Positions 14,115 to 23,047 of a DNA stretch of 64,000 bases are shown here, one piece after another. Positions within the stretch are counted from its first letter, which is position 1. Every line of letters starts with the position of its first letter. A program made the translations under genes and the position numbers. The notes beneath the pieces were generated by a model that saw nothing but the letters and a program-made list of their open reading frames with translations, was not told where the DNA came from and did not search any database. The stretch comes from Natrarchaeobaculum aegyptiacum (GTDB lineage Archaea; Halobacteriota; Halobacteria; Halobacteriales; Natrialbaceae), in contig NZ_CP019893.1 of NCBI RefSeq assembly GCF_002156705.1, positions 1,798,001 through 1,862,000 of the forward strand. Direction: 5' to 3'.

Positions 14115-15404
14115 ATGACCGAACACGCGTATCCGCCGATCAGCGACCAGCTGGACGATGTGGACGCAGCCCGCGAGGAGGGCCGTCGGAAGATGGACTG
14201 GGCCGCCCAGCACATGCCGATCATGGAGGCCGTCCGCGAGGAGTTCGTCGCCGACCAGCCCCTCGAGGGCGAGAGTATCGCGATGGCGATGCACGTCGAG
14301 GCGAAGACCGCGGTCCTCGTCGAGACGCTCGCCGAGGGTGGTGCCGACGTTGCGGTGACGGGCTGCAACCCGCTGTCGACCCACGATGACGTGAGCGCGG
14401 CCCTCGACGCCCACGAGTCGATCACCTGCTACGCAAAGCGCGGCGTCGACGACGAGGAGTACTACGACGCCATCGAGGCCGTCATCGCCCACGAACCCAC
14501 CATCACGGTCGACGACGGGATGGACCTCGTCGCCGCGATTCACGAGGACTACCCCGAACTGATCGACGGCATCGTCGGCGGTGCCGAGGAGACGACCACG
14601 GGTGTCCACCGCCTGCGCGCGATGGACGACGACGGGGCCCTCGAGTACCCGGTGTTCGCCGTCAACGACACGCCGATGAAGCGGCTGTTCGACAACGTTC
14701 ACGGCACCGGCGAGTCCTCGCTGGCCTCGATTGCCATGACCACGAACCTCTCGTGGGCCGGGAAGAACGTCGTCGTCGCCGGCTTCGGTTACTGCGGCAA
14801 GGGCGTCGCCCGCAAGGCCGCCGGCCAGAACGCGAACGTGATCGTGACGGAGGTCGAACCCCGCCGCGCGCTCGAGGCCCACATGGAAGGCTACGAGGTG
14901 TTGCCTATGTCGAAGGCTGCGGCGGTCGGCGACGTCTTCCTCACGACGACTGGCAACCGCGACGTCATCGTCGAAGAGCACTTCGAGAAAATGGGAGACG
15001 GCGTCTTGCTCGCCAACGCCGGTCACTTCGACATCGAGATCGACCTCGAGGCCCTCGAAGACCTCGCCGTCGACACCTACGAGGCCCGCGACGGCGTCGA
15101 CGCGTACGAACTCGCAGACGGTCGCCGACTCAACGTCGTCGCCGAGGGCCGCCTCGTCAACCTCGCTGCCCCCGTCTCGCTCGGTCATCCCGTCGAAGTG
15201 ATGGACCAGAGCTTCGGCATTCAGGCCGTTTGCGTGCGCGAACTGCTCGAGAACGGCGACGACTACGATGCGGGCGTCCACGACGTCCCCGACGAACTGG
15301 ACACAGAGATCGCCGAGATCAAACTCGCAGCCGAGGGCGTCGAGTTCGATTCGCTGACCGACACCCAGCGCGAGTACATGGGCTCGTGGGATCACGGGAC
15401 CTGA
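14115..15404 (+). CDS. ahcY: Adenosylhomocysteinase-family hydrolase (SAH or S-inosylhomocysteine hydrolase)
   Basis: NAD-dependent hydrolase, 429 residues. The Rossmann fingerprint GFGYCGKG is at 223-230; the substrate side includes the VND...K-LFDN stretch (about 183-194) and GCNPLSTHDD (83-92). It lacks the KPDxYRY C-terminus of eukaryotic enzymes, as usual in archaea. It releases homocysteine plus adenosine (or inosine), ending the SAM cycle. ATG 14115 matches the family N-terminus (HMPIM within the first 40 residues). With the deaminase at 11014 nearby and metXY in the window, it belongs to homocysteine recycling. Confidence 0.93.
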   Translation: MTEHAYPPISDQLDDVDAAREEGRRKMDWAAQHMPIMEAVREEFVADQPLEGESIAMAMHVEAKTAVLVETLAEGGADVAVTGCNPLSTHDDVSAALDAHESITCYAKRGVDDEEYYDAIEAVIAHEPTITVDDGMDLVAAIHEDYPELIDGIVGGAEETTTGVHRLRAMDDDGALEYPVFAVNDTPMKRLFDNVHGTGESSLASIAMTTNLSWAGKNVVVAGFGYCGKGVARKAAGQNANVIVTEVEPRRALEAHMEGYEVLPMSKAAAVGDVFLTTTGNRDVIVEEHFEKMGDGVLLANAGHFDIEIDLEALEDLAVDTYEARDGVDAYELADGRRLNVVAEGRLVNLAAPVSLGHPVEVMDQSFGIQAVCVRELLENGDDYDAGVHDVPDELDTEIAEIKLAAEGVEFDSLTDTQREYMGSWDHGT

Positions 15405-15668
15405 TCGGACGCTCGGATTTTTCGATTCGATGGTCGACTGGCCCTGTTCGGACCACCGCTCCCTCGAGTAACGTCTGATAGTCAGTTTGGGCTGGTGCTG
15501 GGACCATCGACACCCACTCGAGCGGGACGCCCCACGGTACCTAACCCCCACAGACCGCGTTCCTCCAGTGAGTGGGCGGTACTGATTGACCTGGGGAGTA
15601 CTCTCTCGAGGTGGTCTGTCTGTCTGTCGCTGTCTCCGTTTCGCGAGGACACCAGCTGCCATCGGCTC

Positions 15669-15885
15669 TTACGTCTCGTCTCCCCTCGAGTCGTCTCCCC
15701 TCGAGTCGTCTCCTGTCGTCTCACCCGGAATCTCGGCGTCGTCGGGGAGCAGGAGTCGTCGCTCGGTGTATGCGAGGCCGTTCTTCCGCCGGTTGCGTTT
15801 GCGCACTGCGACGCGGTTGTTCGAGCGCTCGAGGACGGCGTCGATCACCCTCGAGACCAGTTTCTTCGCGTCGGTGTCGCCGACG
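15669..15885 (-). pseudogene. Truncated copy of the 3' end of the coiled-coil gene at 17491-18663
   Basis: Translated on the minus strand, this stretch gives about 68 residues matching the C-terminus of the intact protein closely: DAKKLVSRVIDAVL, SNNRVAVRKRN, RKNGL-YTERRL, and an SRG-rich tail ending in ET before the stop. An in-frame TGA lies just upstream and nothing earlier in the gene is present, so it is a 5'-truncated relic. DNA downstream of the stop (about 15600-15668) is also similar to that at 17420-17490, so the copied unit included 3' flank. The rest of 15405-16022 shows no gene. Confidence 0.88.
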
Positions 15886-16022
15886 CCGCTGTTTCACTCG
15901 GCGAAATTACCCTCAGATAATCTGGTCACCGTCTTCCGGTCCGCTCTCTCCGTTCAGGATACGTTCACGTGGCGCGTCGTTGGGTGCCGTCCGGTCCTCC
16001 CAGCTCTTCCCTTCCACACGTG

Positions 16023-16074
16023 AGTGACACCAGTGACACACTAACTGTTATGACGTGGGATACAGTAGTGACAC
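16023..16074. promoter_or_regulatory. Three AGTGACAC direct repeats at the antitoxin start
   Basis: Perfect copies of AGTGACAC lie at 16023-16030, 16032-16039 and 16067-16074, on both sides of the antitoxin ATG (16050). Repeats placed like this are common operators for autoregulating toxin-antitoxin operons; binding is inferred. Confidence 0.4.
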
Positions 16075-16421
16075 CTGTGCCGATCGATATCGAGACGTTC
16101 GACGCGAGCTCCGAACACGAACTCACGGGAGAGACGAATGCAGAGCGAATCATCACGTTCCTGGCTCGAAACGATGACAAGGCGTTCACGCCCGCTGAAA
16201 TAGCCGACGGATCTGGTGTGAAGAAGGGATCGGTCAGTACTGTGTTGAGCCGACTCGAGGATAAACAACTGGTCCGGCATAAGGGTGAATACTGGGCAAT
16301 CGGAGACATGGACCGCGTTCGTGATGCATACGATTTCCACAGGACCGTTCAGCGATTGGACGACCAGTACGGTGACGAAGACCTCGAAGAGTGGCAGGAA
16401 CATGCAGCCGAGGATGCGTAG
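16050..16421 (+). CDS. Winged-helix antitoxin of an HTH/PemK-type pair
   Basis: The protein has 123 residues. The middle (about 30-82) is a MarR-like winged helix: AERIITFLARND (helix 1), TPAEIADGSGVKKGSVSTVLSRLEDK (HTH) and a short wing (VRHKGEYWAIGD). The acidic helical C-terminus (about 85-123) is the likely toxin-neutralising part. Its stop codon touches the toxin ATG without spacing, so the pair is one operon. ATG 16050 is chosen because the upstream extension is non-coding in character and holds operator-like repeats. Unlike AbrB- or RHH-type MazE, the DNA-binding part here is a winged helix. Confidence 0.72.
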   Translation: MTWDTVVTPVPIDIETFDASSEHELTGETNAERIITFLARNDDKAFTPAEIADGSGVKKGSVSTVLSRLEDKQLVRHKGEYWAIGDMDRVRDAYDFHRTVQRLDDQYGDEDLEEWQEHAAEDA

Positions 16422-16757
16422 ATGGAGTACGATCGAGGAGACGTCGTTATCGGCTACGACAAGTTCAAGGAAGAATCGGCTGGACGTCCGTTTTTGATCA
16501 TCAGCGACGAAGAGACACCATTTCACGGGGAACAGTACATCGTCCTCTCGCTCACAACACGAACGTGGTACAAGGACCGTCTCCCGATTGACGAATCCGA
16601 TTGGACCGACGGTGGCGCGCCACGATCGAGCTCGATCATGCCGTGGTCAGTGAACTCCATTAGCGCCACCGAAATCGACGTCAGACAGGGAACACTCAGG
16701 GAATCGATCGTCACGACTGCGACGGAACACCTCTCCGAGTACGTTATCGCTGATTGA
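16422..16757 (+). CDS. PemK/MazF-like toxin (putative endoribonuclease)
   Basis: The protein has 111 residues and the layout of the CcdB/PemK fold: N-terminal RGDVVIGYDKF-(x)-GRPFLIIS strand pair, a central VLSLTTRTW-K, a Ser/Pro loop (PRSSSIMPWSV) and a final helix. Family members cleave mRNA. The last sense codons and the TGA lie at the left boundary of the adjacent IS200/IS605-like element, so the original C-terminus may have been altered by that insertion. Confidence 0.68.
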   Translation: MEYDRGDVVIGYDKFKEESAGRPFLIISDEETPFHGEQYIVLSLTTRTWYKDRLPIDESDWTDGGAPRSSSIMPWSVNSISATEIDVRQGTLRESIVTTATEHLSEYVIAD

Positions 16758-17262
16758 CATCCTCCTCCGCGTAAACGCGGAGGAATCCCGAGCGGTGGGA
16801 GTTTCAGGTTTCCAGTCCAACCGGCGGACTACCACACCTTTCGGGCGCGGGTAGTCCCACAGTCTCGGTGTGGTGGACTGCTGGCCATGCCAAGTGGCCG
16901 TTACCCCTATCCTCGACCCTGTTTGGCGTCCCGGTGTTGTTTTTGCCACAGGGACGCCAGCAGGTGTCAGCAGAGTCGGGGGTATCGTCGTGCTCGCTTC
17001 GAGCAGTCGGCACGTTGGCACACCCTTCGGAGATGTGGCGTTCACGGACTGCTCTTTCGGATATTGTCTCATTACGTGGGTGGACAGGCCACCTCCGCAG
17101 GACGGTTCGGAATCCGCTCCGTTCCGACCAACTCCTACTTTCCAGAAGAACGGCCTGTGACTTAAATATCGCCGTGAGAAACTCGGCGAAGCAGCTGAAC
17201 GGTGGGTTATGACCACAAGTGACGGCGCGTATCCACGGCCTGAAGACCGTGGTATTGCGCCT
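16751..17262. mobile_element. Gutted IS200/IS605-like element (no intact tnpB)
   Basis: The left boundary has GATTGACATCCTCC followed by a perfect 8-bp stem with TAAA loop (16764-16771/16776-16783) and GGAATCC; the same signature ends the tnpB element at 31411. The other boundary has a CCACGG...CCGTGG hairpin (17233-17252) with a central TGAA, matching in layout the hairpin at 33000-33019. The roughly 460 bp between the ends holds only open frames of unusual composition and no recognisable TnpB motif, so it is a deletion derivative or a MITE-like passenger. The rest of 17263-17490 shows no gene. Confidence 0.65.
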
Positions 17263-17490
17263 GTTCAGCGTATAACCGTTGACAGCCGTCGTCTCCGGGC
17301 AGCCCCTCGAGCCCTGTCCGTCGTCTTGCCCACCGACGCCCACTCGAGTGAGATACCCACCACTAACCATCCCTCGAGCAGCCGCGGTCGCGTGCGTTGT
17401 GCGTGATCGAAGAGAGTCAGTCGACCTCTCTCGAGGCGGTTTTCATCTCAGTGTCCCCGGTCACCCGAGGACACCAGCTGTCACCGGCGC

Positions 17491-18663
17491 TTACGTCTCT
17501 TCGCCACTCGAGCCTTCTCCACTCGAGCCTTCTCCCCTCGAGCCTTCTCCCCTCGAGTCGTCTGTTGTCGTCTCGCCCGGAATCTCGACGTCGGCGGGGA
17601 GTACGAGTCTCCGTTCGGTGTACTCGAGGCCGTTCTTCCGCTGATTTCGTTTGCGGACTGCGACGCGGTTGTTCGACAGGTCGAGAACGGCGTCGATCAC
17701 CCTCGAGACGAGTTTCTTCGCGTAGGTATCGCTGATGCCGGGTTCCTGTCTGCGAATCCAGTGTTTGAGATCGCTGGCTGTGACGTACTCCGCGATGTCC
17801 TTGCAGCCGGGCTCCCACGGGTCATCACCGACGCTCGGATCGGTTCGGGCCTGCCAGAGTTTCGCGGCGAGGCGCGTCGGTAACGCGTTCGCCGCCGAGC
17901 GCAACATCTCGTCGTCCATCCGGGCCAGTTGCTGAATCGGCAGGAGGTCGCCATAGGCGAGTGTGACGGACCCTCCACGCTCGAGCGGGTCGGCCTGCTC
18001 CGGTAATCGGTAGTATTGCCGCCCGTCGTCCTTCCGGATTCGCTCGAGTCGGTTCTCGGGTACCTCGACGGTGTCCACGTCGACGGTCGCTGCGAGCAGG
18101 TGGGCTCCCTTCTCGAGTTCGCGGGACTGGAGTTCGGCGATCCGGTCTTTGTTGGCCGCGAGCTTGCGTTCGTGGGCTGTGAGGCGGGCCTCGATGGGGT
18201 CCGGGTCTGTGGGGGTGGTCTGGTCGTGGGTGGTGTGGGTCTCGTCGGGTTCGTCGGTCTGGTGGGTTTCGGTGGTCTCGTCGGGTTCGTTGGCCTCGAG
18301 CCCGTCCAGCCGGTCGACCGTGGTCGACAGCTGCGTCTCGAGCTGGGTGACGGTCTGCTCGAGGGTGGTGAGGCGGTCGTGGTCGTCGTGGTCCTGATCG
18401 GATCGTGGTGCGTCCGCTCGAGTCCCCTCACCCTCGAGTCGGTCGCGATCGGTTCGGGCTGCCTGCTGATCGGCCTCGAGTCGTTCGACTCGAACCACCA
18501 GTTCGTCGACTCGCCTCGTCAGATCGTCCAGCGCGGTCAGCAAGTGCTCGAGTGACGCCGACTGGGTGTGGTGCTCGCGTGGCTGGTGGTCATGCTCGCG
18601 CTCGGCTCTGGGTTCGGATTCAGGCGGCTGGCGTGGTGACTCCTCGTCGTCTCCGTCACTCAT
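17491..18663 (-). CDS. Acidic coiled-coil protein with predicted C-terminal winged-helix domain, unknown function
   Basis: The protein has 390 residues (ATG 18663; ATG 18669 is possible). Order: acidic, disordered N-terminus (1-35); heptad-rich coiled coils (about 38-75, 95-125 and 165-200) separated by Thr/Asp/Glu linkers; then a folded region (about 205-360) including DIAEYVTASDLKHWIRRQEP, a KKLVSRVIDAVL helix and a basic strand pair (RVAVRKRNQRKNGL...YTERRLVLP) that looks like the recognition part and wing of a winged helix; then a Gly/Ser/Glu tail. It overlaps the stop of the upstream partner by 8 nt, so they are coupled. A decayed copy of its 3' end lies at 15669. Function not recognised; DNA binding is inferred. 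Confidence 0.78.
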   Translation of the reverse strand: MSDGDDEESPRQPPESEPRAEREHDHQPREHHTQSASLEHLLTALDDLTRRVDELVVRVERLEADQQAARTDRDRLEGEGTRADAPRSDQDHDDHDRLTTLEQTVTQLETQLSTTVDRLDGLEANEPDETTETHQTDEPDETHTTHDQTTPTDPDPIEARLTAHERKLAANKDRIAELQSRELEKGAHLLAATVDVDTVEVPENRLERIRKDDGRQYYRLPEQADPLERGGSVTLAYGDLLPIQQLARMDDEMLRSAANALPTRLAAKLWQARTDPSVGDDPWEPGCKDIAEYVTASDLKHWIRRQEPGISDTYAKKLVSRVIDAVLDLSNNRVAVRKRNQRKNGLEYTERRLVLPADVEIPGETTTDDSRGEGSRGEGSSGEGSSGEET

Positions 18664-19192
18664 CGTCATCACCGCTACGGGTTGGCTCGCTCGAGTCTGT
18701 GAGTGAGTCGGCTGGGTTGGTGGGTGAGTGGTCGCTCGAGTCGGCTGGGTCAGTGGGTGAGTGGTCGCTCGAGTCGGCTGGGTCAGTGGGTGAGTGGTCG
18801 CTCGAGTCGGCTGGGTCAGTGGGTGAGTGGCCGCTCGAGTCGGCTGGGTCAGTGGGTGAGTGGCCGCTCGAGTCGCTGGTCGAATTCGCTGTCGACCCGT
18901 CACCCGGTCGGTACGAAATCGCCCCCTCCGGGCCGAGCACCGTCAACCCGACCTGACTCGCCTCCGCCCTGATCTGGAGCAGGTGTCGGCGGACTGCCTG
19001 TCGCTCCCGATCGGACAGGTCGTCGATCGCGTCGTCTTCGGGGGCCGGGGCCTCGAGCGCCGCGAGCAAGGTACTGGTCAGGGCGTCGACCTGCTCGAGG
19101 TGACTGTGAATCAGTTCGGGGGTGGGGTGGTCTCGAGTCGGTGCGTCCGGTCGGTCGGGGCTTTGATTACCCCGTGAATCGTCGTTGGACAT
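18656..19192 (-). CDS. Repeat-tailed acidic protein, partner of the coiled-coil gene, unknown function
   Basis: The protein has 178 residues, first gene of a two-gene operon. After an acidic start there is a helical core (about 22-85) with ELIHSHLEQVDALTSTLLAAL and LSDRERQAVRRHLLQIRAEA, a short strand segment (VGLTVLGPEGAISY), then five 11-residue repeats SS(G/D)HSPT(D/N)PAD and a Ser/Asp tail. The core could form a helical hairpin for oligomerisation. The stop overlaps the next start. A relic of its N-terminus lies at 20200-20275, in the same orientation. Confidence 0.75.
   Translation of the reverse strand: MSNDDSRGNQSPDRPDAPTRDHPTPELIHSHLEQVDALTSTLLAALEAPAPEDDAIDDLSDRERQAVRRHLLQIRAEASQVGLTVLGPEGAISYRPGDGSTANSTSDSSGHSPTDPADSSGHSPTDPADSSDHSPTDPADSSDHSPTDPADSSDHSPTNPADSLTDSSEPTRSGDDDE
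18707..18871 (-). repeat. Five tandem 33-bp in-frame repeats
   Basis: Five near-identical 33-bp units encode SS(G/D)HSPT(D/N)PAD at residues 108-162 of the gene at 18656-19192. They are contiguous with no unique spacers, so this is a coding minisatellite and not a CRISPR. Confidence 0.94.
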
Positions 19193-19435
19193 GGCTTCCG
19201 TAGGTGCGTTACGGGAGCTGTGGCAGGGGGTGCGCTACCACCACCCTGCTATTCTGCGGACAATCTCGAGTGATCAGTCCGAAGTATCCCGTTGGCCTGT
19301 ATTGTATTCTGCTCTACAAAAAACTATTCTATAAGCAGTTTGGAAAACCTATACAGTCGCTAAAGCAACCTTATAGCTGTTAGGATCTCTCTTCTTGCGT
19401 ACTTTCTTTGAACACTGCTTTACATAGCTAGAGAG

Positions 19436-19696
19436 ATGCGAAAGCGAGCCGACTGGATGACCCGGACGGACGACGAGATACTCGAGTACCTTGACGAGCA
19501 GGGTGCAGGCACTCCCAAGGCGATCGCCGATGCGATCGATCGAAATAACCAGTACATCGGGGTCCGGTGTCGGACGCTCGCTTCCTACGGATTGGTGGAG
19601 AAACCGTCTCGAGGATTCTACGTGATTACCGACGACGGTCGTTCCTATCTGGAAGGCGAACTCGATGCCAGCAAACTCACCGAAAGCGAGCAGTAA
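19436..19696 (+). CDS. Small winged-helix DNA-binding protein 1
   Basis: The protein has 86 residues, almost all one winged helix of the haloarchaeal phage PhiH1-repressor-like/MarR type: WMTRTDDEILEYL (helix 1), a TPKAIADAIDRNNQYIGVRCRTLASYGLV helix-turn-helix, and a FYVITDDGRSYLEGELD wing and last helix. First of four related genes in a row. It is divergent from the unknown two-gene operon, with a 243-bp AT-rich gap between the starts, so control of that operon is a reasonable guess. Confidence 0.8.
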   Translation: MRKRADWMTRTDDEILEYLDEQGAGTPKAIADAIDRNNQYIGVRCRTLASYGLVEKPSRGFYVITDDGRSYLEGELDASKLTESEQ

Positions 19697-19807
19697 CTGC
19701 TCTCTCAACGGGTGCTTGCGTAACGACCTGCAGTGGAAATCGCCGGCGAGCAGATACACTCGAGAAGTAAAACGTATCTTCTGGTCGACCGCAGCTACGG
19801 CTAACGC

Positions 19808-20116
19808 ATGCGAGCCCGTGTCTCGTGGATGAATCAGGCAGACGATGCCATCCTCGAGTACCTTCAGGAACTCGAGACGGAACCGGGCCACCGAATTTCG
19901 CTGCCACCAACTACCGTCTGGTACAACCTCGTCGAACAACTCGGCGTACTCGACCGTAGCCAGAACACGATCGCCCGTCGCATGAACATCCTCTCCGAGG
20001 CTGGCCTGCTCGAGAAAACCGACGAAAAACGCGGCTACTACCGACTCACGGATCGCGGCATCGCATATCTCGAGGGCGAACTCGAGGCTGCTGACCTCGA
20101 ACTCGAGGACGACTGA
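19808..20116 (+). CDS. Small winged-helix DNA-binding protein 2
   Basis: The protein has 102 residues with the same plan as its neighbours: VSWMNQADDAILEYLQEL, a longer insertion (about 23-42, GHRISLPPTTVWYNL), the helix-turn-helix with NTIARRMNILSEAGLLEK, and a YYRLTDRGIAYLEGELEAADLE wing and tail. The insertion before the helix-turn-helix sets it apart from the other three. The 3' flank resembles that of the third copy. Confidence 0.8.
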   Translation: MRARVSWMNQADDAILEYLQELETEPGHRISLPPTTVWYNLVEQLGVLDRSQNTIARRMNILSEAGLLEKTDEKRGYYRLTDRGIAYLEGELEAADLELEDD

Positions 20117-20199
20117 TTCTGGACGCTGTCTCGAGAGTGCGAATGGCTGCTGAGTCGGAACCCACTGACCGTGGTGTAGGCTGAAATAGACTCGAGTCA

Positions 20200-20275
20200 G
20201 CGCGTCGAACTCGAGTGCTGGCAACAGGCATGGTCTGTCGGGGGTTCCGTTCTCCCGTGAGTCGTCGCTTGACAT
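20200..20275 (-). pseudogene. Relic of the 5' end of the repeat-tailed gene (18656-19192)
   Basis: From ATG 20275 on the minus strand the reading MSSDDSRENGTPDRP resembles the first 15 residues of the intact protein (MSNDDSRGNQSPDRP), followed after a deletion by ALEFDALTRVYF against LEQVDALTSTLL. The flank before the ATG (CATGGCTTC... on the plus strand) also matches. Nothing of the core or the repeats follows. The remaining parts of 20117-20505 hold no gene apart from the duplicated upstream element. Confidence 0.7.
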
Positions 20276-20357
20276 GGCTTCTGTCGGCTGGATGCGGGAG
20301 CTACCTGCGGACTCGGGAGCTACCACCGGTCTGCGTTCTGGGGCTCGTCGCCGTGGC

Positions 20358-20422
20358 GAGTCACGGATAGCTTCCGTAGTGGCGACTATATTCTCCACTG
20401 ACATAAGTTTTGACAACGTACG
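20358..20422 (+). repeat. Duplicated upstream element, copy A
   Basis: This 65-bp stretch upstream of the third winged-helix gene matches copy B (20861-20925) at about 58 of 65 positions, including a block TTCTCCACTGACATAAG that is identical in both. It contains TATA-like and TTTTGAC segments and probably carries the promoter or an operator; weaker similarity extends about 35 bp further upstream. Confidence 0.85.
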
Positions 20423-20505
20423 ATGTTATTTTAGCGTATCGATTGGGCATATTGCTCTGCAGATAGTGCTGCTTTTTCTACTCCGATGCTGGCTATTCTC
20501 GAACG

Positions 20506-20763
20506 ATGGTCGAGCGGGTTTCGTGGATGGCACCTGTCGATTACGAGATCATGCTCTTTTTCGACGAGTATCCGATTCTGGTCTCCCCGAAGATACTCGC
20601 CGTCAATATCGACTACGATCGCCACTACGTCAGTCGACGATGCAGTGCACTTTCGGATGCTGGTCTTCTGGAACCCGTCGACACTGGCCTCTACCAGCTT
20701 ACCGACACCGGCCGCGACTATCTCGAGGGCGACCTTGACGTGTGCGAACTCGAGGACGACTGA
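20506..20763 (+). CDS. Small winged-helix DNA-binding protein 3
   Basis: The protein has 85 residues. VERVSWMAPVDYEIMLFFDEYP opens the fold; VSPKILAVNIDYDRHYVSRRCSALSDAGLL is the helix-turn-helix; LYQLTDTGRDYLEGDLDVCELEDD is the wing and acidic end. It is the closest paralogue of the gene at 21011 at both DNA and protein level, and both follow copies of the same 65-bp upstream element. Confidence 0.82.
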   Translation: MVERVSWMAPVDYEIMLFFDEYPILVSPKILAVNIDYDRHYVSRRCSALSDAGLLEPVDTGLYQLTDTGRDYLEGDLDVCELEDD

Positions 20764-20860
20764 TTCCGGTCGCCGTCTCGAGGGTGTGAGTGACCGTCGA
20801 TCCATCATCGGGAGTCATTGTTGCTACCACTGGCCCACTGCTGGAACCCATCGCCGCAGA

Positions 20861-20925
20861 GAGTCGCGTATAGCTTCCGTAGTGTCGACGATGTTCTCCA
20901 CTGACATAAGTTTTGACTACATACG
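20861..20925 (+). repeat. Duplicated upstream element, copy B
   Basis: Second copy of the 65-bp element at 20358-20422, preceding the fourth winged-helix gene. Together with the similar coding sequence it shows that gene and control region were duplicated as one unit. Confidence 0.85.
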
Positions 20926-21010
20926 TCGTTCTCACGGAACTACGAAAGTCGTCTACTACTCTCTGGATACTACTGATTTTTCCGTTCAGCTACCGGCACA
21001 TCGTGAATAG

Positions 21011-21274
21011 ATGGTCGAGCGGGTTTCGTGGATGGCTCCAGTGGACTACGAGATCATGCTGTTCTTCGACGAGCACGCCATTCAGGTCTCCCCGCGAGTC
21101 CTCGCCGCAAACATCGACTACGACCGACAGTACGTGAGCAAGCGCTGCCGGGTGCTTTCCGAGGCAGACCTTCTGGAATCTGTCCAAACTGGCCTCTACC
21201 AGCTTACCGACACCGGACACGACTATCTCGAGGGCGAGCTTGACGTGCGCGAACTCGAGGACGACGAGGACTGA
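21011..21274 (+). CDS. Small winged-helix DNA-binding protein 4
   Basis: The protein has 87 residues, nearly identical in its first 20 residues to copy 3 (VERVSWMAPVDYEIMLFFDE). The helix-turn-helix has VSPRVLAANIDYDRQYVSKRCRVLSEADLL, followed by the LYQLTDTGHDYLEGELDVREL wing and an acidic tail. Divergence is concentrated around the recognition helix and its following turn, so the copies may read different operators or form mixed dimers. Confidence 0.82.
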   Translation: MVERVSWMAPVDYEIMLFFDEHAIQVSPRVLAANIDYDRQYVSKRCRVLSEADLLESVQTGLYQLTDTGHDYLEGELDVRELEDDED

Positions 21275-21302
21275 GGGTTCTACGACTGGGAGTACAACAC
21301 TC

Positions 21303-21410
21303 TGAAAGCCCCTGCCGCGCTCGGCGGCTGCGACTCGCTGCGCTCCTCGTTTCACTGCGGTGCTTGCTTCGTCTCGCTCGCCGAGCCCGCCAGCCCCTTT
21401 CATTCCCACC
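21303..21410 (+). repeat. GC-rich dispersed intergenic repeat, copy 1
   Basis: The ends TGAAAGCCCC and CCCCTTTCATTCC enclose GC-rich sequence with short internal palindromes. Two more copies with the same end motifs occur at 24809-24913 and (inverted) 25091-25213. No reading frame of haloarchaeal character; identity unknown. Confidence 0.55.
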
Positions 21411-21496
21411 CTGGTGGTTGGCCGGGTGGCTGTTGCTCGGTGGGTAGCGCGATAAAAAATGACGCGAGTGGTGGTCGGTCGTCGTGGGTCTCCGTC

Positions 21497-21847
21497 CTAG
21501 CGGCGGACGGCGAGCACGACGGCCGAGAGCAGTGCGGCTACGGCGACGAAGGCCCCGAAGCCGGGGATTCCGTCGTCATCGTCGTCTGCGACGTCGTCAG
21601 CCGGATCGTCGGCCGGGTCGTCGTCCGCGACGGGGTCGTCATCTGCTGGGTCGTCATCCGCGACTGGGTCATCGTCTGCTGGGTCGTCGTCTGCGACCGC
21701 GGTGTCATCGGCTGGGTCGTCGTCTGCGACATCGTCGTCATCGTCGTCAGCTGGTGGTGATGCACCACCGCCACCGCCACCGGGGCTGGTGTCATCGGTC
21801 TCTTCTTCCTCTTCGAACGTTCCCGCTGGGAACTCGAGGTCTACTTC
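21497..21847 (-). pseudogene. 3' remnant of a PGF-CTERM surface protein gene
   Basis: The minus strand reads an acidic linker with ADDDPADDDPV repeats, then IPGFGAF, a hydrophobic helix and RR before the TAG. This is the PGF-CTERM tripartite signal recognised by archaeosortase ArtA, normally the last 25 residues of an S-layer-anchored secreted protein. The frame upstream of about 21848 runs antisense into the regulator gene and has no signal peptide or domain, so only about 116 C-terminal residues remain. Confidence 0.7.
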
Positions 21848-23047
21848 GTGGACGCCGGACTCGAGTACGTGAGCGACCTCAACGAGACGATCCGGTCGCT
21901 GTACACGGCGCTGATCGACGCCGACTCTCGAGCCGAGATTCACCGCTCTGTCTGTCAGGCGCTGACGACGATCGACCGTGTCGACGCTGCCTGGATCGGG
22001 ACGGTCGATCACGACCGGAACGTGGTCGAACCCGCCGCACAGGCACACCTCCCGCCGGAGTTTCTGGACGACCAGTCGTTCTCGCTCGCCGACGACCGGC
22101 CAGCGCCCGAAGCGCAGGTTGCAGACGAGCGAACGGTCGTCGACGTCGATCGGATTCCGGTCGGCGTCCACGAGGAGCCGTGGCGAAACACGGCGTTGAT
22201 CCACGGCTTCCGGTCGGTCGTCGCCGTCCCGATTCGACACGAGGAACTGTTTTACGGGACGCTTACCGTCTACAGTACCGAGACGGACGCACTCGACGAG
22301 CGAACGACGCGCCTCCTCGAGGAGTTCGGGACGCTGGTCGGGTTCGTCACGAACGCCGTCGAGCGCCGGGATGCCTTCGGTGACGACCAGATGGTCGATC
22401 TCACTGTCGACGTCGAACCCGGCGAGGAAGACGTCTGCGTGGCCCTCGCGTCCAGACTCGAGACGACCGTCGAGGTCGGGAACGTGACCCGTCGGAATCG
22501 CAACTCGCACGTGCTCCACTGTTCGATCGACGACGTCGATCCCGGGACGGTGACCGACGTGGTCGCGGAGATTCCGGGTCTCGAGTCGATCCGCCCGCTT
22601 TCTGAATCTGCCAGCACGGCCTACGAACTCGTCGTCGTCGACCAGTGTGTCGCCTCGCGGGCGGTCCCGATCAGTGCGCTCCTTCGGTCGATCCGGGTCA
22701 CGCCGACGAACTGTCAGATCGTCTTTTCGGTCCCCGAGTACAGGGACTATCAGCGATTCCTCGAGCAGGTTCGTGACGTCTTTTCGGCTGCTACGCTCGT
22801 GGCCAAGCGACAGGCGTCGGAAGCCGGCTCCGTTCCCGTTCCGGAACTGCTCGAGGCGTCTCTCTCGGAGAAGCAAGACGAAGCGCTGCGAACGGCCTAT
22901 CACAGCGGCTACTTCGACGACGATCGAAAGCGAACGGGTGCAGAGATCGCCACGTCGCTGGGGATCGCCCAGCCGACGTTCTCGAAGCGACTGCGCTCCG
23001 CCCAGCGGGATCTTCTGGCCGCTATTCTCGAATCCGACTCCCTCTAG
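21848..23047 (+). CDS. GAF / HTH_10 (bacterio-opsin-activator type) transcriptional regulator
   Basis: The protein has 399 residues. A GAF domain (about 15-175) follows a helix DLNETIRSLYTALIDADSRAEI; a middle region of the bat type (about 185-315) precedes the C-terminal HTH_10 (about 338-392) with LSEKQDEALRTAYHSGYFD and GAEIATSLGIAQPTFSKRLRSAQRDLL. Such proteins regulate redox- or light-linked genes. The GTG start sits where the PGF-CTERM remnant ends; many relatives carry a PAS or receiver domain before the GAF, so this one may be 5'-truncated. GTG 21869 is an alternative start. Confidence 0.83.
   Translation: MDAGLEYVSDLNETIRSLYTALIDADSRAEIHRSVCQALTTIDRVDAAWIGTVDHDRNVVEPAAQAHLPPEFLDDQSFSLADDRPAPEAQVADERTVVDVDRIPVGVHEEPWRNTALIHGFRSVVAVPIRHEELFYGTLTVYSTETDALDERTTRLLEEFGTLVGFVTNAVERRDAFGDDQMVDLTVDVEPGEEDVCVALASRLETTVEVGNVTRRNRNSHVLHCSIDDVDPGTVTDVVAEIPGLESIRPLSESASTAYELVVVDQCVASRAVPISALLRSIRVTPTNCQIVFSVPEYRDYQRFLEQVRDVFSAATLVAKRQASEAGSVPVPELLEASLSEKQDEALRTAYHSGYFDDDRKRTGAEIATSLGIAQPTFSKRLRSAQRDLLAAILESDSL

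Follow-up and report, generated by a model that had tools for sequence, protein, structure and literature searches.

Four repressor-like genes beside a conserved leader in Natrarchaeobaculum aegyptiacum: a probable array of accreted virus and plasmid switches

The window analysed here, a stretch of 64,000 nucleotides (positions 1,798,001–1,862,000 of contig NZ_CP019893.1), lies on the 3.93 Mb chromosome of the haloarchaeon Natrarchaeobaculum aegyptiacum. It contains four tandem genes of small winged helix-turn-helix (wHTH) proteins, wHTH1 to wHTH4 (genes 1 to 4), next to a divergent operon of two genes, here called X and Y, with a leader that is likely to be structured. The locus is probably an accreted array of repressor switches of temperate viruses or plasmids, of the phiH/SNJ2 kind; we put the probability of this at about 0.76. 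wHTH1 faces X-Y in the divergent layout of a phiH/SNJ2-type switch, and by analogy wHTH1 would control the operon. In sequence comparisons the leader-X part appears constant across such units, while the repressor subtype and the DNA upstream of it vary; subtypes 1, 2 and 3, as far as sequence assigns them, each occupy the X-facing position in other genomes. Within subtype 3, the recognition helix appears to track a dyad abutting the conserved promoter-like block of X.

Recognition helices and dyads

The distinct loci, window included, comprise 10 with wHTH1-like genes (subtype 1), 12 with wHTH2-like genes (subtype 2) and 35 with genes like wHTH3 and wHTH4 (subtype 3; one MVERVSWF protein, L189, was excluded). 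In subtype 3, the dyad follows the X-promoter block, and among the 35 loci its sequence goes with the class of the recognition helix: the SR class (VSRRC) has a CAAyG dyad in eight of eight cases, the GK class (VGKRC) has CTACA in seven of seven, and the SK class (VSKRC) has CyACG in 18 of 20. The SK exceptions are the first site of wHTH4, which is of the CTACA kind, and a locus with different upstream DNA and no site (L163). We consider the dyads to be candidate operators, presumably bound by the facing wHTH proteins.

Genes 3 and 4 belong to different classes. wHTH3 (20506–20763, plus strand) has the VSRRC helix and the candidate operator ACAACGTACGATGT (20413–20426), a CAAyG site with one mismatch against ACAACGNNCGTTGT. 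wHTH4 (21011–21274, plus strand) has the VSKRC helix and two candidate operators, ACTACATACGTCGT (20916–20929, two mismatches against ACTACGNNCGTAGT) and ACTACGAAAGTCGT (20939–20952, one mismatch against ACTACGWWCGTNGT). Both helix classes occur in other genomes. The protein tree places wHTH3 within SR with moderate support (92/81, under the starred level of the tool), and explains SR and GK by a single change each. The sequence-only reading of this DNA had suggested that the copies may evolve new operator specificity or act as mixed dimers; the assignment of the two genes to separate helix classes, with the class apparently tracking the adjacent dyad, agrees with a difference in operator specificity.

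A weak candidate operator of wHTH1 (19412–19428, plus strand) lies directly 5' of the wHTH1 start codon. This best site has four mismatches to the subtype-1 consensus, the median of the nine other members also being four. The 130 bp upstream of wHTH1 contain no good subtype-3 dyad, the best sites having four mismatches to the SK pattern and six to the SR pattern; hence regulation of the resident X-Y by wHTH3 or wHTH4 would not be expected.

As a target finder in its own genome the wHTH4 dyad was uninformative, yielding 19 matches with at most one mismatch versus three for the reversed control; the sole two separate sites close together were those adjoining wHTH4. A scan for exact dyads in subtypes 1–4 was also discarded, since it picked up leader hairpins instead of operators. 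The same kind of scan gave exact upstream dyads in two other subtypes (at loci such as L022, L029, L059 and L062), ACGTG-N6 in seven of seven cases of subtype 5 and GCAAT-N4 in seven of ten cases of subtype 7, the shuffled maximum being two.

Genes 3 and 4 as a mosaic

The four tandem winged-helix genes of the sequence-only reading are all intact open reading frames on the plus strand; wHTH1 (subtype 1) occupies 19436–19696 and wHTH2 (subtype 2), 111 bp 3' of it, 19808–20116. Genes 3 and 4 indeed share coding sequence, their proteins being 80% identical and their DNA 82% identical over 256 nt, and genes 1 and 2 are more distant, with 40–43% protein identity to the other wHTH genes. Identity of the gene 3 and gene 4 proteins is 100% in residues 1–21, 60% in 22–36, 68% in 37–58 and 85% in 59–85. 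In the AlphaFold2 model of wHTH4, the sole wHTH protein modelled (predicted local distance difference test score 92), helix 2 corresponds to H28–35 and the recognition helix to H39–51. Thus the earlier suggestion that the recognition helices differ most holds in part: the divergence does fall there, but it spans helix 2 as well.

The divergence is unevenly distributed at the DNA level too. Codons 59–85 of genes 3 and 4 are 92.6% identical, the top value of 595 subtype-3 pairs, with a synonymous divergence (dS) of 0.06; codons 22–58 are 70% identical with a dS of 1.65, which is usual for the family. In a sliding comparison, from which L163 was omitted, identity is raised at 20366–20411 (one or two of 560 pairs are higher), drops to background between the dyad and helix 3, and at 20681–20726 is exceeded by none of the 560 pairs. 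The operator and the recognition helix thus differ jointly within alike flanks, a sequence pattern that suggests either exchange of a cassette or conversion of the flanks. Since both classes are known elsewhere, wHTH3 groups with SR on the protein tree and the pair is a mosaic, in-place divergence after duplication does not seem the simplest reading of these two genes.

The element upstream of genes 3 and 4

Over 90 nt, the regions 5' of genes 3 and 4 have 82% identity, and TTCTCCACTGACATAAGTTTTGAC is the same in both. An upstream element of 65 bp, nearly identical and duplicated together with the genes as their promoter, had been proposed for this array. The element is indeed common to genes 3 and 4, but over the full length its two copies are similar and not nearly identical, and it is present at two of the four genes only. 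Furthermore, on the minus strand the shared block matches the promoter-like region and the 5' leader of the divergent gene X, according to both nhmmer and a covariance model. Hence the duplicated DNA is regulatory, but chiefly that of the opposite-strand X operon: the proposed promoters are mainly relics of divergent operons, not promoters of the wHTH genes alone.

The nhmmer leader profile matches the window at 19262–19134 (intact X), 20422–20222 (gene 3) and 20925–20813 (a partial match at gene 4, covering model positions 1–115 of about 214). Upstream of gene 3, a decayed leader is joined to a stub of X of about 14 codons, denoted X' (20221–20383, minus strand; repeat D4), beyond which the sequence is unrelated and stays open on the other strand across gene 2. 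This leader scores 93.2 bits with the covariance model R1, of which it is itself a row, and has broken pairs. The partial leader 5' of wHTH4 (20784–20886, minus strand) is not a model row and scores 21.2 bits (E-value 3.8e-5). Next to the two leaders are the copies of a 24-nt block of common sequence, at 20391–20414 and 20894–20917 (both minus strand), which from its position and conservation is probably the core promoter-like region of X, or of X' in the first case. The dyad adjoining the shared element is not alike between the gene 3 and gene 4 copies.

A 17-mer of the shared element occurs twice in the window, versus 0.06 copies expected. Genome-wide, with at most two mismatches, these two copies are joined by one isolated one-mismatch site near a transposase-like reading frame (the reversed control gives one), so that the 17-mer was rejected as a genome-wide wHTH operator. 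At that site (L003, 1501–1517) the similarity extends on one side, and the 17-mer lies at the start of a small membrane-protein-like reading frame.

The leader of X

The intact leader of X (19138–19298, minus strand, AUG included) scores 124 bits with R1, partly by construction, as most of it is among the model rows. Four helices are proposed: P1 near the 5' end, P2 as a long hairpin, P3 stopping right before the AUG, and P4 within the first dozen codons. P1–P3 were drawn manually from the sequences and then counted. Out of 65 extracted leaders 59 were aligned and six omitted. In this alignment 88.9% of the cells pair, versus 31–38% with the structure slid along, and changes on both sides are seen in 75 cells, versus 33.8 in shuffles (none of 500 as high); four of the five covariation measures lie above every one of the 500 shuffles. 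P3 shows no covariation among the 59 leaders. A further set of 24 matches, from 16 loci without model rows, has 90.6% of its cells paired and 18 pairs changed on both sides, with five of five measures above all 500 shuffles; here P3 has both-sided changes at four pairs.

The intact leader (19138–19270) folds better than 200 of 200 shuffled sequences (z −3.1), and three further leaders have z of −3.1, −1.5 and −1.6. The X' leader (20221–20350) shows no excess folding, 167 of 200 shuffles being as good (z +0.86). In many leaders a 5' TACGGAAGC has the same sequence as the 3' arm of P3, and its pairing with AGCTCCCGTA would be possible; such pairing suggests a switch, which is a guess from sequence.

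No leader match was found in Rfam at an E-value of 1 for the region 15000–22000 of the window. With the covariance model, leaders are detected in 103 of 125 genomes of the family, taken to be Natrialbaceae (E 1e-6, the E-values being rough), with at most 13 copies per genome, and in the viruses SNJ2 (8.3e-32), Humcor2 (7.4e-18) and HRPV9 (1.4e-15), neither SNJ2 nor HRPV9 being in the model. The AUG of the model falls, in both HRPV9 and SNJ2, on the start annotated for the gene opposite the repressor (ORF4 and gp3, respectively). Of three weak matches in the genome of N. aegyptiacum itself, one of which lies near 89 kb, the other two (L231, L232) had no wHTH in the selected reading frames and no nhmmer leader match, and hence were taken as chance. 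Leader modules without Y were seen at L221, L222, L229 and L230; integrase-like genes are located 3' of the leaders in L222 and in L221 (in the latter, a SAM-like domain only), and L221 also has a Cdc6-like ATPase.

The X-Y operon, other arrays and neighbouring genes

X-Y lies on the minus strand directly left of gene 1. X (18656–19192) encodes a small protein of 178 residues with the conserved N-terminus MSNDDSRGNQSPDRP and no Pfam match; it overlaps Y (17491–18663), an intact gene of a coiled-coil protein of 390 residues. The C-terminal part of X, rich in Ser, Asp and Pro, is encoded by a 33-nt tandem repeat (18705–18875).

The gene order X-Y is the same in the plasmid loci L018 and L019, whose homologues of Y are 57–63% identical to it; in two related plasmids a wHTH gene is divergent from X-Y, with 235 bp between them. 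Y is found in 46 PLSDB plasmid records and matches 87 of 125 family genomes, with at most 12 matches per genome, fragments counted. X was absent from the viral contigs searched, and Y was found in three viral contigs but not in any phage record. From 137 relatives the best 80 were kept, giving 79 loci in named genomes, 78 of them with a Y match above 300 bits. A divergent wHTH gene lies within 2.6 kb of Y in 63 of these 78; of the other 15 loci, two are close to the end of a contig, and in five there is a wHTH gene further away. Outside the window, a Y gene is faced within the fetched stretch in five of nine subtype-1 loci, nine of 11 subtype-2 loci and 23 of 33 subtype-3 loci, the other ten having no Y in that stretch; the stretches were picked largely via Y or wHTH matches, so these fractions are not unbiased rates. 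The plasmid modules L017, L018 and L019 adjoin glycosyltransferase, aglM/aglF or sulfatase genes.

Tandem wHTH genes occur elsewhere too (L050, L076, L098), and in L223–L228 there are repeated leaders alongside at least one wHTH gene. On the chromosome of N. aegyptiacum itself two more tandem diverged wHTH genes are located at G000:C1:1574361-1574920, and a wHTH gene carrying an in-frame TAG adjoins a leader at G000:C1:3716824-3717072.

On the other side of Y, a second Y gene is represented by a 3' fragment (15708–15890, minus strand; 102 bits, Y-model positions 227–287 of 289), about 1.6 kb past the end of the intact one. Between the two copies there is a pair of genes on the plus strand (16053–16757), encoding a MarR-like protein (MarR_2, E 2.3e-9) and a PemK/MazF-like toxin, the PemK_toxin match being slightly under the cutoff (E 1.9e-4). 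The arrangement of this region (15380–17520) looks as if cargo had entered beside a duplicated end of Y. A sub-threshold match to sot0042 in Rfam (16763–16942, minus strand; 48.3 bits vs. a cutoff of 88) is perhaps a remnant of an insertion-element end. Relatives of the MarR-like and PemK-like proteins, 44% and 49% identical, are encoded in the array L224, where the PemK-like protein has no Pfam match at 0.001, and an annotated PemK/MazF-HTH pair is located close to Y in L025.

Proposed mechanism and alternative explanations

The unit of the array would be a small PhiH1-repressor-like wHTH protein facing a divergent leader-X transcript. By analogy with phiH and SNJ2, the repressor would bind the dyad, turning off the X promoter and tuning its own one. 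The leader, folding around the start codon of X, could provide a second, RNA-level control. Recombination via the alike flanks, as the mosaic of genes 3 and 4 suggests, could import an operator and a helix as one specificity cassette. The wHTH1 unit alone would still drive a leader-X-Y that is intact; in the units of wHTH3 and wHTH4, X-Y has apparently been lost while the repressor and the dyads were kept, hence they would be capable at most of autoregulation and of silencing incoming elements with matching dyads. Repressors outliving their operons may in this way serve as immunity or incompatibility factors; that is the boldest reading of the retention of wHTH3 and wHTH4, slow decay being the plain one. 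In its most general form, leader-X would be a constant riboregulator with exchangeable repressor-operator cassettes, and chromosomal arrays would bank the repressors of past elements for immunity or incompatibility, with new specificities recombined in. This general form we regard as tentative and rather doubtful.

A number of results count against the proposed reading. As SR and GK each appear to have arisen once, the number of independent changes behind the helix-dyad covariation is small, about two. The DNA tree does not place wHTH3 with SR, its nearest row being gene 4; the first site of wHTH4 is one base off its class; and in codons 59–85 of genes 3 and 4 the nonsynonymous divergence (dN) is 0.083 vs. 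a dS of 0.059. The operators of subtype 1 are weakly defined, and upstream of wHTH2 the subtype-2 dyad is absent, the best site having ten mismatches, versus a median of four and a minimum of zero at 11 other subtype-2 loci. As to the leader, the structure tested on the 59 sequences was derived from rows of the same alignment, the fifth measure, further pair types, gave 38 vs. 34.7 (39 of 500 shuffles as high), and RNAalifold produced from these leaders only P4 and a 2-bp pair (seven pairs). The 24 additional rows were picked as matches to the model and fitted to it, which tilts them towards the structure. The Humcor2 leader is faced by an annotated hypothetical protein and no annotated repressor, and the structure model of Y has no PDB match at an E-value of 0.001. 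Finally, the dN/dS of wHTH3 and wHTH4, about 0.1 (in the means, pairs with an undefined dS or a dS above 2 are excluded), mainly records the time preceding the loss of X-Y.

Plain tandem duplication in place, that is, copying of genes 3 and 4 with their upstream DNA followed by divergence for new operator specificity, would account for their being mutually nearest in DNA (81%), for the position of gene 3 outside SR in the DNA tree, and for the common 24-nt block. It does not explain why divergence with a background dS is limited to the segment from operator to helix, between unusually alike flanks, why the two proteins group with different classes known elsewhere, or why genes 1 and 2 represent subtypes that occur separately in other genomes; we hold it to be distinctly unlikely. 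The locus might also be functionless debris, made up of decaying modules of plasmids or viruses in which the repressors are simply the last to go. The X' stub, its broken leader, the Y fragment and the other wHTH gene with a stop codon fit such a picture, but all four reading frames are intact with the low dN/dS given above, wHTH3 and wHTH4 have retained their dyads, and X-Y with its leader is intact; on balance this seems unlikely.

Two further alternatives concern the nature of the parts rather than the history of the array. The leader could be a DNA element whose hairpins serve replication, recombination or protein binding, and not an RNA structure. The counts of G.U vs. A.C combinations are mixed (57 vs. 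23 in P1, 33 vs. 17 in P4, 21 vs. 34 in P2 and 0 vs. 12 in P3), and so they do not decide between RNA and DNA. However, P3 ends right before the AUG, P4 is situated within the first codons of X, and the modelled AUG is the annotated start in both HRPV9 and SNJ2, which makes the DNA element improbable. The wHTH proteins, in turn, could be partition or chromatin proteins of a plasmid module, reportedly as AspA is, or Sso10a-like ones, and not promoter repressors. Y being a plasmid-linked coiled-coil protein, and weak matches to Sso10a models, are in line with this, but the latter score 13–17 bits against a cutoff of 60. Moreover, the top PDB match of the wHTH4 model is a PhiH1 repressor-like protein (3b73, chain A; E 8.1e-6, template modelling score 0.82, 32% identity), and there are one or two dyads by a divergent promoter instead of long centromere-like arrays. 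We consider such a role very improbable. The array of phiH/SNJ2-type repressor switches is thus the reading that we prefer.

If this preferred reading is correct, a small duplication becomes a testable system, in which operators are predicted by class within one subtype of a large archaeal repressor family. The leader adds a candidate structured RNA without a match in Rfam, which occurs in 103 of the 125 genomes of a single haloarchaeal family as well as in the viruses SNJ2, HRPV9 and Humcor2. Both would help to explain how the setting of integration and immunity works in temperate archaeal viruses and plasmids, and whether foreign repressors are banked on chromosomes.

Comparison with known systems

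All four wHTH proteins match PHROG 2440, a family of haloarchaeal virus repressors, with E-values from 5.7e-33 (wHTH1) to 8.7e-22 (1.8e-22 for wHTH2). In excerpts of the phiH literature, rep and T4 stand back-to-back, T4 being repressed by rep (PMC4284463), and immunity is attributed to the L-region (PMC4284463, PMC6210493, PMC6471424). The RepR switch of phiH and phiCh1 (rep versus T4/ORF49, repH), as described in part of that literature, resembles the locus in that a small repressor of the winged-helix type is divergent from an operon of small ORFs in a temperate haloarchaeal element; over 72 residues, wHTH4 and phiCh1 RepR share 37.5% identity. Unlike here, there is a single repressor at the site, and, in contrast to X, phiCh1 has no significant leader match (best E 0.39).

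In the betapleolipovirus SNJ2, gp4 is divergent from gp3-gp2-integrase. gp4 is 37% identical to wHTH4, gp3 has an N-terminus of the X type, and the leader is present, its P3 having one compensatory change and one broken pair. The differences are that gp3 has a PadR domain and X has no Pfam match, that the integrase takes the place of Y, and that one such regulator is seen in the stretch shown. An integrase in the operon, as in the SNJ2-type integration module, was not found in the window, where Y follows X. Orf2 and Orf3 of SNJ2 raise integrase activity in vivo, according to a part of PMC8371274, which we do not assume for X; the SNJ2 repressor was suggested, in a passage of PMC7547991, to act as phiH rep. 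In HRPV9, ORF5 faces ORF4 and the leader is present.

Going by the portions of the literature consulted, the repressor switch itself is already known, and so are two PhiH1-like repressors per module in HHPV4 (PMC5867852). As far as searches of open-licence papers show, three things appear to be new: the pairing of helix classes with operators, the mosaic formed by genes 3 and 4, and the conserved, probably structured leader. In HHPV4 the two repressors, about 28% identical, belong to one module with an SNJ2-type integrase (excerpts of PMC5867852 and PMC7547991); compared by this published description alone, it resembles the array in N. aegyptiacum in having more than one PhiH1-like repressor together, there in a virus.

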